From assembly GCF_039962255.1 (NCBI RefSeq), contig NZ_JAMPKY010000012.1, forward strand, positions 124,001-188,000: 64,000 bases of DNA. Direction: 5' to 3'. Position 1 is the stretch's first letter. Every line of letters begins with the position of its first letter. Below, in pieces: positions 59,303 through 64,000 of this stretch. The position numbers and the translations under genes were made by a program. The notes under the pieces are model-generated. The model searched no databases. It was not told where the DNA came from and saw only the letters and a list, made by a program, of their open reading frames with translations. Origin of the DNA: Leptolyngbya subtilissima AS-A7. Its GTDB lineage: Bacteria; Cyanobacteriota; Cyanobacteriia; Phormidesmidales; Phormidesmidaceae.

Positions 59303-60151
59303 TCAGGTGTGGATTACGGTTTGCTCGTTCTCCACCATAAACACATTTGAATAGAGGTTAGCAATTATTTGCTTACCTTCTTGGGTGAGCGACAGATAAC
59401 GCAGCCCATCCTGGATATAGGGATGCACCACATTCCAGTAAAACTTAGGGTAGTTAGCCCGTAGATCGCCGGGATGATCGTAGCTCAGGTACTTGTTCTG
59501 ACCCGTTTCCTCAAACTCGTAGTACAGCGCCCCAATTTTCTTTAGATAGCGGGGGTCGCTGAGCTGGCCGATTAGGTCGGCCGCCCGCACCAGACCAGGA
59601 AAGTGTTGGGTATCTTGGTGATCTTCTTCTTTGGGTACCGGAAAGCGGGTCAGCTCAATATTGCGCTTGATGGCGTCGGCCTCAATCACTGGGTTACCGC
59701 CAAAGCGTTCTTCAATGAATCGCTTGCCCCGATCGACGTGGTAGGGGGTAAGGGAGGCATCGGAGGCACCGGGCTGGAGCATGACCATTTCGTCACCCTG
59801 ACCTGTGGCGTAGAGGTGGTTGCGGTCTTGGTCACTGCGGCAAACTCCTTTTACGTAGCCAATGTCATGGCAGACGAGGGAAATGATGAAGTGCATCCAG
59901 TCTTTGCAGGTGACGCCGCCTTCGCGAATGTGCTTGCCCCGCAAAATCTCTTGTCCCACTAGGGCAACTAAAACGGTGTGCTCAACGTTGTGGTAAAGCG
60001 CGTCGCTGTTGGCGATGTTTTCGAGCGCCATGCTGCCCGCCCAGGCAATGATGTCTTCATAGTCGGGGTTTTGGCCGCCGTAGGTGCGGTGGTAGCCCAC
60101 CCGCAGCTTGTCGACAAAGTCACTGATAAGGATTTCGGTGGCGTTAAACAT
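59303..60151 (-). CDS. HD-domain metalloprotein, Npun_R2479 type
   Basis: The 282-residue protein belongs to a cyanobacterial HD-domain family. The metal ligands are in LYHNVEHTVLVAL (His) and ISLVCHDIGYVKG (HD), with later histidines in PGLVRAADLIGQLSDP and YLSYDHPGDLR. HD proteins are usually phosphohydrolases; the substrate of this family is unknown. ATG 60151 is used because the codon at 60157 is TTG. It precedes the ABC permease by 9 bp, so the two are probably co-transcribed. Confidence 0.87.
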   Translation of the reverse strand: MFNATEILISDFVDKLRVGYHRTYGGQNPDYEDIIAWAGSMALENIANSDALYHNVEHTVLVALVGQEILRGKHIREGGVTCKDWMHFIISLVCHDIGYVKGVCRSDQDRNHLYATGQGDEMVMLQPGASDASLTPYHVDRGKRFIEERFGGNPVIEADAIKRNIELTRFPVPKEEDHQDTQHFPGLVRAADLIGQLSDPRYLKKIGALYYEFEETGQNKYLSYDHPGDLRANYPKFYWNVVHPYIQDGLRYLSLTQEGKQIIANLYSNVFMVENEQTVIHT

Positions 60152-60484
60152 TCCCAAGACCTGCCTTGTTAAGAGTCGAGCCGTTGGCGTGAGAGAGCAG
60201 TGACGACGGGGTGAACAAAGCTCACGCAGTATATATCTATGCTATTAGACCAAACCTTCCCTATTCAGGTGTGTGATTCAAATCAGTAAAAATCATGAGC
60301 TTGGCCCCTGGAAACTGGTTGAGGAAGTAATTCCCTAGATATATCAAGCGATCCCAAGGCTACGAGGCATTAAGCCATCACGGAGAAATCAATATTTCGT
60401 AACCTATCTAGCCGCTAGCCAAAGGGCGCGACTGCGCAGAATCTCTATTCTTCTGCCCCTCTGGCGACCACAGCTGGTTCATCG
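60152..60484. other. Spacer upstream of the HD protein gene
   Basis: About 330 bp with no gene seen; it should contain the promoter of the HD-permease pair. No clear repeat or hairpin noted. Confidence 0.4.
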
Positions 60485-61394: not shown

Positions 61395-62258
61395 TCATAG
61401 CCTCTTAGGGGGAACGGAGATGGTTCTGGTTGAATGGGTCGGCTCGGTTGTTTTTTGACCATCGGAAAACCGATAAGGGCCATCAAAGTTGCCGACAAAT
61501 ACCGTATGGGAAACCAAACTACCATTTCCCCACATGTGGAGCTGATAGGCCGGGGGTTCCATGACAAACTGGCTGACTGCATCGGGCTGTAGATCTAGGA
61601 AACCCTGATGAACCAGACTGGGCTGGGTGCTAGCGATAGTGCCAGCCCAGCGACAATACATCACCCGATGCAGGTGGCCACAGCTAACCCGCTCAACCTG
61701 GCTGTGTTGGGCAATCAAGGCGGCTAAAGCATCGCGGCCTTCTAACCTACGTCGATCCATCCAGGGAATGCCGGTTATAAACGGGGGGTGATGCATGAAG
61801 AGCAAGGTGGGGGTCTTAGGGGCTCTTATCAGTTGGGTCTCTAGCCACGCTAGCCGCTGAGCATCCAGTTTGCCCGACTTTTCCCCAGGCAGGGTGTTGT
61901 CTAGCATAATCAGGCGGATTGGATAATCGTCTACGACATAGCTCAGATGATCCATAGAGCTAGACAGATAGCGATGATCAGCAAATGCCTGCTGCAGGTT
62001 TGCCCCCTGATCATGGTTTCCAGGCATTAGATAAATTGGAGCGCGTAGGTTTGCCAGCAGCTCTCTCAACTGTTGATAGTCGGCCACAGTGCCCTGCTGG
62101 ACTAAATCGCCTGTAGCAACGACCAAATCAGGCTGGGGGTTCAGCTGGTTGAGATGGGCGATCGCAGCCTGCACCAGTGAGTTAGTATCCACAACGCCGT
62201 AGGCCAGTGCGCCTGCCGACTGCACATGCAAATCGCTAATTTGAGCAATCAGTGTCAT
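61395..62258 (-). CDS. Metallophosphoesterase / Icc-like phosphodiesterase
   Basis: The 287-residue protein is a calcineurin-type phosphoesterase of the CpdA/Icc class. Metal-binding motifs are ISDLHVQ (D-x-H), VVATGDLVQQG (GD), MPGNHDQG (GNHD), LFMHHPPF (H) and CGHLHRV (GHxH). Members cleave cyclic nucleotides or other phosphodiesters. The ATG at 62258 overlaps the stop of the PhnZ-like gene by 4 bp, so it is tightly tied to the phosphonate operon. In that context it could act on a cyclic phosphoribosyl intermediate, replacing PhnP; that is inference. Confidence 0.9.
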   Translation of the reverse strand: MTLIAQISDLHVQSAGALAYGVVDTNSLVQAAIAHLNQLNPQPDLVVATGDLVQQGTVADYQQLRELLANLRAPIYLMPGNHDQGANLQQAFADHRYLSSSMDHLSYVVDDYPIRLIMLDNTLPGEKSGKLDAQRLAWLETQLIRAPKTPTLLFMHHPPFITGIPWMDRRRLEGRDALAALIAQHSQVERVSCGHLHRVMYCRWAGTIASTQPSLVHQGFLDLQPDAVSQFVMEPPAYQLHMWGNGSLVSHTVFVGNFDGPYRFSDGQKTTEPTHSTRTISVPPKRL

Positions 62259-62815
62259 GGCGCATCCGCCGGTTGGCAGGCTTGCTGTAGGCAAGGTAGA
62301 AAATGCTCTAAGTCTGGGGTGTCTTGGTTAGGCACTTTCGCCAAATCATCCCAGCGGCGCAGTTGTACGGCCTGTTCTGCGTAGGGCTGCTGAATAAAGG
62401 CAGTGGCGGCAGCTGGGGAAAAAACACCACCCTGAAGCTCTAGACTACGTTTGGAAGTCACCGATAAAGAGTCCCAGTAAGCTTCATCTACGGCACAGAG
62501 GTAGCGTTTGGCGGCGACATGGAGCTGAATTGGCAGGGTTACCGCCGCTGGGAACAGCTGTTCTAAAACGGGGATCGCTCGCTGTTCATGGCGATCGTCA
62601 AGGCCGCGCAGTGCCGGATCATCCCCCAAGTGATGGATCAGGTGCCCTAGATCGTGGAACAGGCAGGCTGCAATCATCTCAGGAGATTGCTCAGCTTGTT
62701 CAGCCAAGGTGGCACACTGGAGGGCGTGTTCGAACTGGCTGACAGCTTCGCCACCGTATTGGGCTTGACCCCGTTGGCGATAGAGATCGAGCAGAGTCGC
62801 GAGATTATGGGGCAT
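62255..62815 (-). CDS. PhnZ-like HD-domain protein of phosphonate operons
   Basis: The 186-residue HD-domain protein has the di-iron HD pattern: His in FEHALQCATLAE, the HD in CLFHDLGHLIHHLG, and later His in QLHVAAKRYLC. The YGGEAVSQFEH segment has the Tyr and Glu that in PhnZ interact with the substrate, and the whole resembles the HD family found in phosphonate degradation operons. PhnZ itself oxidatively cleaves a hydroxylated aminoethylphosphonate. Here it is 12 bp after phnM and overlaps the phosphodiesterase gene. The substrate is not proven. Confidence 0.85.
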   Translation of the reverse strand: MPHNLATLLDLYRQRGQAQYGGEAVSQFEHALQCATLAEQAEQSPEMIAACLFHDLGHLIHHLGDDPALRGLDDRHEQRAIPVLEQLFPAAVTLPIQLHVAAKRYLCAVDEAYWDSLSVTSKRSLELQGGVFSPAAATAFIQQPYAEQAVQLRRWDDLAKVPNQDTPDLEHFLPCLQQACQPADAP

Positions 62816-62827
62816 AGGATTGAAAAA

Positions 62828-63994
62828 TTAGAGGGATTGTTTAACCGGCAGACCATTGATGTAGACAGCCCGAATGGCGCTGGGTAAAGTGCGATCGGGA
62901 GTCAGCAAGAGAAAATCGGCATCGTAGCCAGGGGCAATTTTGCCTTTTTGGTCGCCAATTTTGGCGGCTTTAGCCGGATATTCGGAAACGCACTTCCATG
63001 CCTGCTCAAAGGGCATCAGTTCTTTTTCAGCCAGTAGAAAAGGGGCATGGAATAGAGAGGGATAGTGGTAGTCAGAACAGAGGCAGTCTAAAACTTGAGA
63101 TTGGGCCGCTGCGGCAACACTCATATAGCCGACATGGGAACCACCCCGCACCAGATTGGGGGCTCCCATCAAGACAGCGGCTCCGTAGGCACGGGATGCC
63201 TCTGCCAGCGGGATAGAGGCCGGGAATTCTGCGATCGCAACTCCCCGCTCTCGGCTTTTAGCCACATCGGCTGCCGTTTCATCGTCGTGGGAGGCTACCG
63301 GAATGCCCAAATCATGACAGCGCTGCACCAAGTCTTCAAACTGAGCTAGGCCTTCCTCTTGGCGGGGATAGGCAGCCTGAACTAGGGCCAGAATGTCGGC
63401 TTCGGAAAGCTTTAGCCGTTGACGTAGCCCCTGCGTATATCGCCGTATAGTTTCATCATCGGTCGTAGGCGGGAGGTGGTTATTGAGGGAAAGCAGCGTG
63501 ACTTTGCGAGTTTCTAGCCAGCCGCACAGTTCGTCATAATCAGCGGTATTGGCTTGCTCGTGGCGAATGTGAATGCGACTATCGACCCGCAGGCCATGAT
63601 CAGGTGCCGAAATTTGGTTAATCAGCTGCCGCGCCATCTCCCGGCTGCGAAGCCCCGGCTCAAAGGAGTCGGTGATGGAGTAGAAAAATGTAGTAATCCC
63701 GGCTCCCAGCAAAGCCAGCTCGTTCTCCACCAGGGCCATATCCAACGGTAAATTGACCCCAGGCCGAGGGCAAATCATGCGCTCAAACGCATCGCCGTGG
63801 ATATCAACAATGCCAGGCAGGAGGTGCAGGCCGGTGACATCGATCGCAACATAGCCACTGGGTTTGGCCGTTTGATCGACGGCGACAAATTTTCCATCTT
63901 CAATCAGCACCGTTGCCGAGTCTAGCCATCCGGTTGGCGTCAGCACCGTTGCGCCCTGTAGAGCCAGTTTGGGTGTCGAGAGAGGATGTTTCAT
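62828..63994 (-). CDS. phnM: Alpha-D-ribose 1-methylphosphonate 5-triphosphate diphosphatase
   Basis: PhnM removes pyrophosphate from RPnTP in the C-P lyase pathway. The 388-residue amidohydrolase-fold protein has the family signature PGIVDIHGDAFERMICPRPGV (His-Gly-Asp metal region), DSRIHIRHEQANT, SLNNHLPP, and VASHDDETAADV plus the C-terminal CSDYHYPSLFHAPF. The start ATG at 63994 is close to the window edge; the family start fits, so the gene is probably complete. Other C-P lyase genes probably lie beyond the edge. Confidence 0.94.
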   Translation of the reverse strand: MKHPLSTPKLALQGATVLTPTGWLDSATVLIEDGKFVAVDQTAKPSGYVAIDVTGLHLLPGIVDIHGDAFERMICPRPGVNLPLDMALVENELALLGAGITTFFYSITDSFEPGLRSREMARQLINQISAPDHGLRVDSRIHIRHEQANTADYDELCGWLETRKVTLLSLNNHLPPTTDDETIRRYTQGLRQRLKLSEADILALVQAAYPRQEEGLAQFEDLVQRCHDLGIPVASHDDETAADVAKSRERGVAIAEFPASIPLAEASRAYGAAVLMGAPNLVRGGSHVGYMSVAAAAQSQVLDCLCSDYHYPSLFHAPFLLAEKELMPFEQAWKCVSEYPAKAAKIGDQKGKIAPGYDADFLLLTPDRTLPSAIRAVYINGLPVKQSL

Positions 63995-64000
63995 GGCAGA

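Follow-up and report, generated by a model that had tools for sequence, protein, structure and literature searches.

The three leftward genes at the end of the sequence analyzed here (the window, a 64-kb stretch corresponding to G000:C12:124001-188000) form the 3' end of a complete C-P lyase operon in a cyanobacterium resembling Leptolyngbya. The reading that we prefer, with a probability of roughly 0.55, is a variant C-P lyase operon, probably PhnF-controlled, in which a phosphodiesterase of the GpdQ/SpdA type (PDE) would act in the role of PhnP and a PhnZ-type HD protein would add an accessory branch. Some cyanobacteria use methylphosphonate by C-P lyase though they are without PhnP and PhnN, and the locus names a candidate for the finishing enzyme. 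The genes within the window are:

62828-63994, minus strand: phnM, second tandem copy (PhnMb), 388 aa, ATG start, predicted alpha-D-ribose 1-alkylphosphonate 5-triphosphate diphosphatase
62255-62815, minus strand: Phn-HD gene, 186 aa, ATG start, PhnZ-like diiron oxygenase, predicted to cleave alpha-hydroxyphosphonates
61395-62258, minus strand: PDE gene, GpdQ/SpdA-type calcineurin-like phosphodiesterase, candidate 5-phosphoribosyl 1,2-cyclic phosphate (PRcP) hydrolase

The initial annotation had described three packed, left-reading genes, separated first by a gap of 12 bp and then overlapping by 4 bp, that encode PhnM, a PhnZ-like HD protein and an Icc-like phosphodiesterase; the coordinates confirm this exactly. 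The gap between phnM and the HD gene covers 62816-62827, and the PDE starts with an ATG at 62258, in a 4-bp overlap (ATGA) with the stop codon of the HD gene; the list of open reading frames gave a TTG start at 62294. Extension past position 64,000 revealed phnG to phnL together with a second phnM, phnF and phnCDE. The window edge cuts through the operon: phnJ lies about 2.8 kb beyond it (G000:C12:190838-191650; E 7e-149 in a profile search), and the order on the same strand, from upstream to downstream, is phnG-phnH-GNAT-phnI-phnJ-phnK-phnL-phnM-phnM'-HD-PDE. A single run (L002:2828-10670) holds phnG, H, I, J, K and L and two phnM genes, in an order that recurs in relatives. The earlier proposal of a variant C-P lyase pathway with a substituted last step thus gained the core genes and a genome with no PhnP over the cut-off, and lost its three-gene unit, the operon having at least eleven genes. 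The phnM-HD-PDE arrangement was found again in several other Leptolyngbya-like genomes, indicating that it is not due to chance.

Both phnM copies were recognized by profile, PhnMb with 504 bits against the NF011987 cut-off of 253. The first copy (L002:4031-5200) is 31% identical to it and shares the motifs H-x-D (ELHTD/DIHGD), SHDD and SDY. On the opposite strand, upstream of phnG, a gene of 1304 aa is followed by phnF, phnC, phnD and phnE. PhnD (312 bits), PhnE (309 bits) and PhnF (223 bits) passed curated cut-offs, and PhnC was assigned by position and by similarity among relatives. The locus thus has in common with the E. coli phnCDEFGHIJKLMNOP operon PhnF, PhnCDE, the PhnGHIJKLM core and a GNAT protein with weak similarity to PhnO (47 bits, cut-off 142), whereas it differs in having no PhnN or PhnP over the cut-off, two phnM genes and the additional Phn-HD and GpdQ-type PDE. 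The 1304-aa gene (L002:11193-15107), located between the phnG operon and phnF, carries endonuclease/phosphatase, phytase-like and phytase domains, which suggests a wider phosphorus-scavenging island.

In E. coli the PRcP ring is opened by PhnP, a protein of the metallo-beta-lactamase fold. None of 36 cyanobacterial genomes encoded a protein over the PhnP cut-off (TIGR03307, 272 bits), the best match reaching 45 bits, and none was found over the cut-off in the six genomes behind related loci. The matches of up to 45 bits would be other metallo-beta-lactamase proteins. The initial annotation had taken into account that a canonical phnP might lie elsewhere in the same genome; none over the cut-off was found there, the best match having at most 29 bits. 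PhnN was likewise not found over its cut-off of 156 in any of the 30 PhnJ-positive genomes, each of which gave one match of 46-75 bits (61 bits in the window's own genome), probably guanylate kinase. In some loci (L020, L038, L040) a HAD or inositol-monophosphatase-like gene lies close by, whose product could dephosphorylate ribose 1,5-bisphosphate where PhnN is absent. The idea that PhnP is replaced in such operons has precedents: the 2H phosphoesterase RcsF has been proposed to stand in for it in other C-P lyase operons (PMC3840354, PMC10574752) and Trichodesmium grows on phosphonates without phnNOP (PMC10574752). The RcsF variant resembles the present operon in being without PhnP and in having another phosphodiesterase in the operon. 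On the other hand, the candidate stand-in here is a calcineurin-like two-metal enzyme of a different fold, 2H versions being found in other cyanobacteria.

The PDE belongs to the Metallophos family (PF00149, 66 bits). It has the features of the class III phosphodiesterases (GpdQ, SpdA and CpdA), with a calcineurin-like fold and the ligand motifs D-x-H, GD, GNHD, H and GHxH, and is neither a metallo-beta-lactamase protein of the PhnP type nor a 2H protein of the RcsF type, which has two H-x-[ST] motifs. The metal ligands D8, H10, D50, N80, H155, H194 and H196 were invariant in 20 relatives. The sequence begins directly at the first core strand, so that no signal peptide is evident. The closest solved protein by sequence was GpdQ, the glycerophosphodiesterase of Enterobacter aerogenes (2dxl, 2zo9, 3d03; E 2e-43), and GpdQ was also the closest fold match of a predicted model with pLDDT 86 (3d03; E 6e-27, TM 0.84). 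The two proteins share the fold, the metal ligands and, along almost their full length, about 32% of residues, and differ in that the window PDE sits in a C-P lyase operon. The best NCBIfam relative was SpdA, the 2',3'-cyclic nucleotide phosphodiesterase of Sinorhizobium meliloti (PMC4222275), with 154 bits, below the equivalog cut-off of 400 and with a different gene context. SpdA hydrolyzes 2',3'-cyclic phosphates, which have a five-membered ring, but does not act on 3',5'-cAMP (PMC4222275). The ring is of the same type as that of PRcP, which by analogy was counted in favor of a possible PhnP role. The PDE is a good candidate for the cyclic-phosphate hydrolase that is otherwise missing here.

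In the pathway that we propose, PhnCDE would import phosphonates, PhnGHI(L) would couple them to ribose 5-triphosphate, PhnM would take off pyrophosphate and PhnJ would cut the C-P bond to give PRcP, the last three steps being carried over from E. coli. Where PhnP is absent, the two-metal PDE at the operon end would most likely open the ring of PRcP, its presumed substrate. The HD diiron oxygenase would free phosphate directly from alpha-hydroxylated phosphonates, its presumed substrates, which would enter by the same PhnCDE transporter and so widen the substrate range. A further suggestion, which we regard as unlikely, is that the PDE may cleave the C-P lyase product at both of its ester bonds, yielding ribose 5-phosphate and free phosphate. 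If so, PhnP and PhnN would both be dispensable and the C-P lyase pathway would have a further, calcineurin-fold end, to which Elen0235 may be a counterpart of PHP fold. Elen0235 of Eggerthella lenta (PHP family), cited in PMC5460133, is able to open a cyclic phosphodiester, yielding a vicinal diol and free phosphate; both enzymes are non-PhnP, the one of PHP fold and the window PDE calcineurin-like.

The distribution of the PDE was determined from 80 related loci and a tree of 94 proteins. Its nearest relatives belong to Leptolyngbya-like cyanobacteria, where the gene follows phnM-HD in last place. All copies from the phn operons of two cyanobacterial genera formed one clade (support 100/92), sister to an unlinked second copy in G155 (Leptolyngbya PCC 7375 type), suggesting a probably single recruitment of the PDE from a family that serves phosphorus scavenging. 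Leptolyngbya sp. PCC 7375 has the same HD-PDE unit. In the genus to which the window belongs, the ortholog was present in 3 of 4 PhnJ-positive and 0 of 17 PhnJ-negative genomes (p 0.003, kinship ignored). The wider family also occurs unlinked and in some PhnJ-negative genomes. The initial annotation had treated linkage to phnM in relatives as informative: in genomes with C-P lyase the HD gene indeed lies close to phn genes as a rule, whereas the PDE is phn-linked only in two genera, with close relatives outside phn operons in others.

This distribution bears on a second reading, in which the PDE is a general scavenger of phosphodiesters or phosphonate monoesters imported by PhnCDE or a related transporter, the operon being its carrier as one for phosphorus scavenging. 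GpdQ is a promiscuous phosphodiesterase (PMC5460133), unlinked PDE copies exist in related genera, and a four-gene ABC transporter operon of the PhnS-like type ends with a close relative of the PDE in Pseudomonas, Pantoea, Salinicola and others:

L078, L093, L097, L105, L124 and about 25 further loci: close PDE relative at the end of a PhnS-like ABC transporter operon

A cyanobacterial relative (L052) also adjoins a PhnS-like transporter. Against this reading, the PDE adjoins phnM-HD as the last gene of the C-P lyase operon in both phn genera, it tracks C-P lyase within the genus, no PhnP candidate over the cut-off is present, and its neighbor, the HD gene, is flanked by a 2H enzyme in other cyanobacteria. 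We consider a scavenging role possible but less likely. On a betaproteobacterial contig (L090) an ABC-PDE set lies a few kb from phnGHI; it was left out as a second case of operon membership because the locus ends there. A 33%-identical PDE was also seen within a sugar-type ABC transporter operon on an E. coli IncF plasmid (L183, NZ_CP069982.1), the one record inspected for context among about 190 E. coli plasmid records that carry it.

The 2H enzyme occupies the same slot as follows. A protein of 175 aa with the motifs PHCTL and LHLSL is encoded directly before the HD gene in six loci, one of them (L014) from the window's genus, on a contig of a fragmented assembly; coordinates of the others are:

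L032:1614-2141: 2H phosphoesterase
L037:15783-16373: 2H phosphoesterase
L038:4991-5578: 2H phosphoesterase
L039:14306-14848: 2H phosphoesterase
L040:13950-14480: 2H phosphoesterase

In a seventh genome (G131) the 2H-HD pair adjoins phnEDC-F (L174), and phnM-2H-HD was present in a genome where no phnJ was found (L150). At least two phosphoesterase folds, unrelated to each other, thus occur next to this HD gene in cyanobacteria. No genome had both an operon PDE and an operon 2H gene, the two types occurring in 6 and 7 of the 30 PhnJ-positive genomes, a mutual exclusion that is not significant alone (p = 0.29). Many PhnJ-positive cyanobacterial loci had neither gene beside the operon, indicating that an unlinked enzyme must suffice there or that the loci are incomplete. 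The window's own genome encodes a distant 2H protein (137 bits; G000:C3:109832-110356), which almost every member of the genus has, with C-P lyase or without. The conserved 175-aa 2H protein is barely recognized by Pfam and not by NCBIfam, and comparisons were made by alignment of cyanobacterial 2H sequences. A Pfam search for DUF1045 (RcsF) gave no match in 30 genomes and likewise none in its control, so that absence is not implied.

The HD protein passed the Phn-HD family cut-off (TIGR03276; 235.7 bits against 214.6) and fell below the TmpB and PhnZ1 equivalog cut-offs. Its closest solved relatives were TmpB (6npa, E 2e-34) and PhnZ (4mlm, E 3e-23). The comparison with characterized PhnZ that the initial annotation had proposed favored its assignment, all 13 of the 13 metal- and substrate-site residues tested being kept, among them Tyr and Glu in the loop of DYIGE type. 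It differs from the PhnZ and TmpB systems in having no adjacent PhnY*/TmpA dioxygenase: no PhnY*/PhyH gene was found near the operon, and the two PhyH proteins elsewhere in the genome were weak and unlinked. Since no PhnY* partner is present in the window, an imported, already hydroxylated phosphonate would be the likeliest substrate. Full-length Phn-HD was found in 23 of 30 PhnJ-positive and 23 of 310 PhnJ-negative cyanobacteria (p 3e-17, kinship ignored), and is thus common in cyanobacteria with C-P lyase. A search of viral contigs with the HD protein gave no relative. In one locus (L178, G113:C54:72083-72602) the Phn-HD gene is split across two frames, probably because it is broken or through a sequencing error. 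A second HD protein is encoded nearby in the window (59303-60157), of the Npun_R2479 family (518 bits against a cut-off of 400), for which no tie to phosphonates was found.

The initial annotation had also offered a hybrid of both routes. Of this, the likely part, judging from the conserved PhnZ residues, is an oxidative branch alongside C-P lyase; its usual partner PhnY* is missing from the neighborhood. Substrate-specific hydrolase genes within C-P lyase operons have been noted earlier (PMC9381506). A true hybrid, in which the HD oxygenase would act on a ribosyl phosphonate intermediate and not on free alpha-hydroxyphosphonates, is very unlikely. The HD gene does adjoin phnM in many loci, some of them units set apart from phnGHIJKL, and is here without a PhnY* partner, but the conserved substrate site fits a small alpha-hydroxyphosphonate, and Phn-HD also occurs without any C-P lyase, in PhnJ-negative genomes, either next to PhnY*, in small genomes of marine type (L166-L169), or together with genes for a 2-AEP transporter, a PhnX-like HAD protein and an FAD oxidase (L154; several others map similarly).

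That the PDE is a cyclic-nucleotide signaling enzyme (Icc/CpdA) tuning cAMP, and in the operon by accident, we regard as very improbable, since the CpdA profile match (126 bits, cut-off 225) and the fold match to Rv0805, next after GpdQ, stand against scores far below the CpdA and SpdA equivalog cut-offs, a closer relation to GpdQ by both sequence and fold, and an HD-PDE order conserved in two genera. The label 'Icc-like' of the initial annotation was accordingly abandoned as misleading, the nearest solved relative being GpdQ and not a cAMP enzyme.

With respect to the regulation of the variant C-P lyase operon, PhnF is a HutC-type regulator. A 10-bp palindrome, TGTCTAGACA, occurred 21 times in 33 phn loci against 0.3 expected. 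Most copies lie a few tens of bp upstream of phnG, often at a distance of 29-41 bp, and phnC, too, is preceded by the palindrome. It fits the operator consensus of the HutC subfamily, GTMTAKAC (PMC4494728), and is likely a PhnF operator, which would place the operon probably under PhnF control. In L022 and L023 it lies 57-94 bp before phnM-HD-PDE, and where phnM is set apart (L018, L022, L023, L024, L057, L171) an exact or one-mismatch copy directly precedes the phnM unit. By comparison, no convincing match to the cyanobacterial Pho box (three 8-bp repeats) was found before phnG, phnF or phnC, the best, before phnC, having an uncorrected p of 0.01 in a set of twelve scans; scans for promoters and terminators did no better than chance. 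Two exact copies are present in the own locus, one ahead of phnG and one at the start of phnC:

L002:10707-10718 (G000:C12): palindrome TTGTCTAGACAT, probable PhnF operator, found in many relatives
L002:18010-18021 (G000:C12): palindrome TTGTCTAGACAT, as above

The 64-kb window has none, a distribution that suits a single transcript from phnG to the PDE and would tie the PhnZ-like oxygenase and the PDE to one probable operator.
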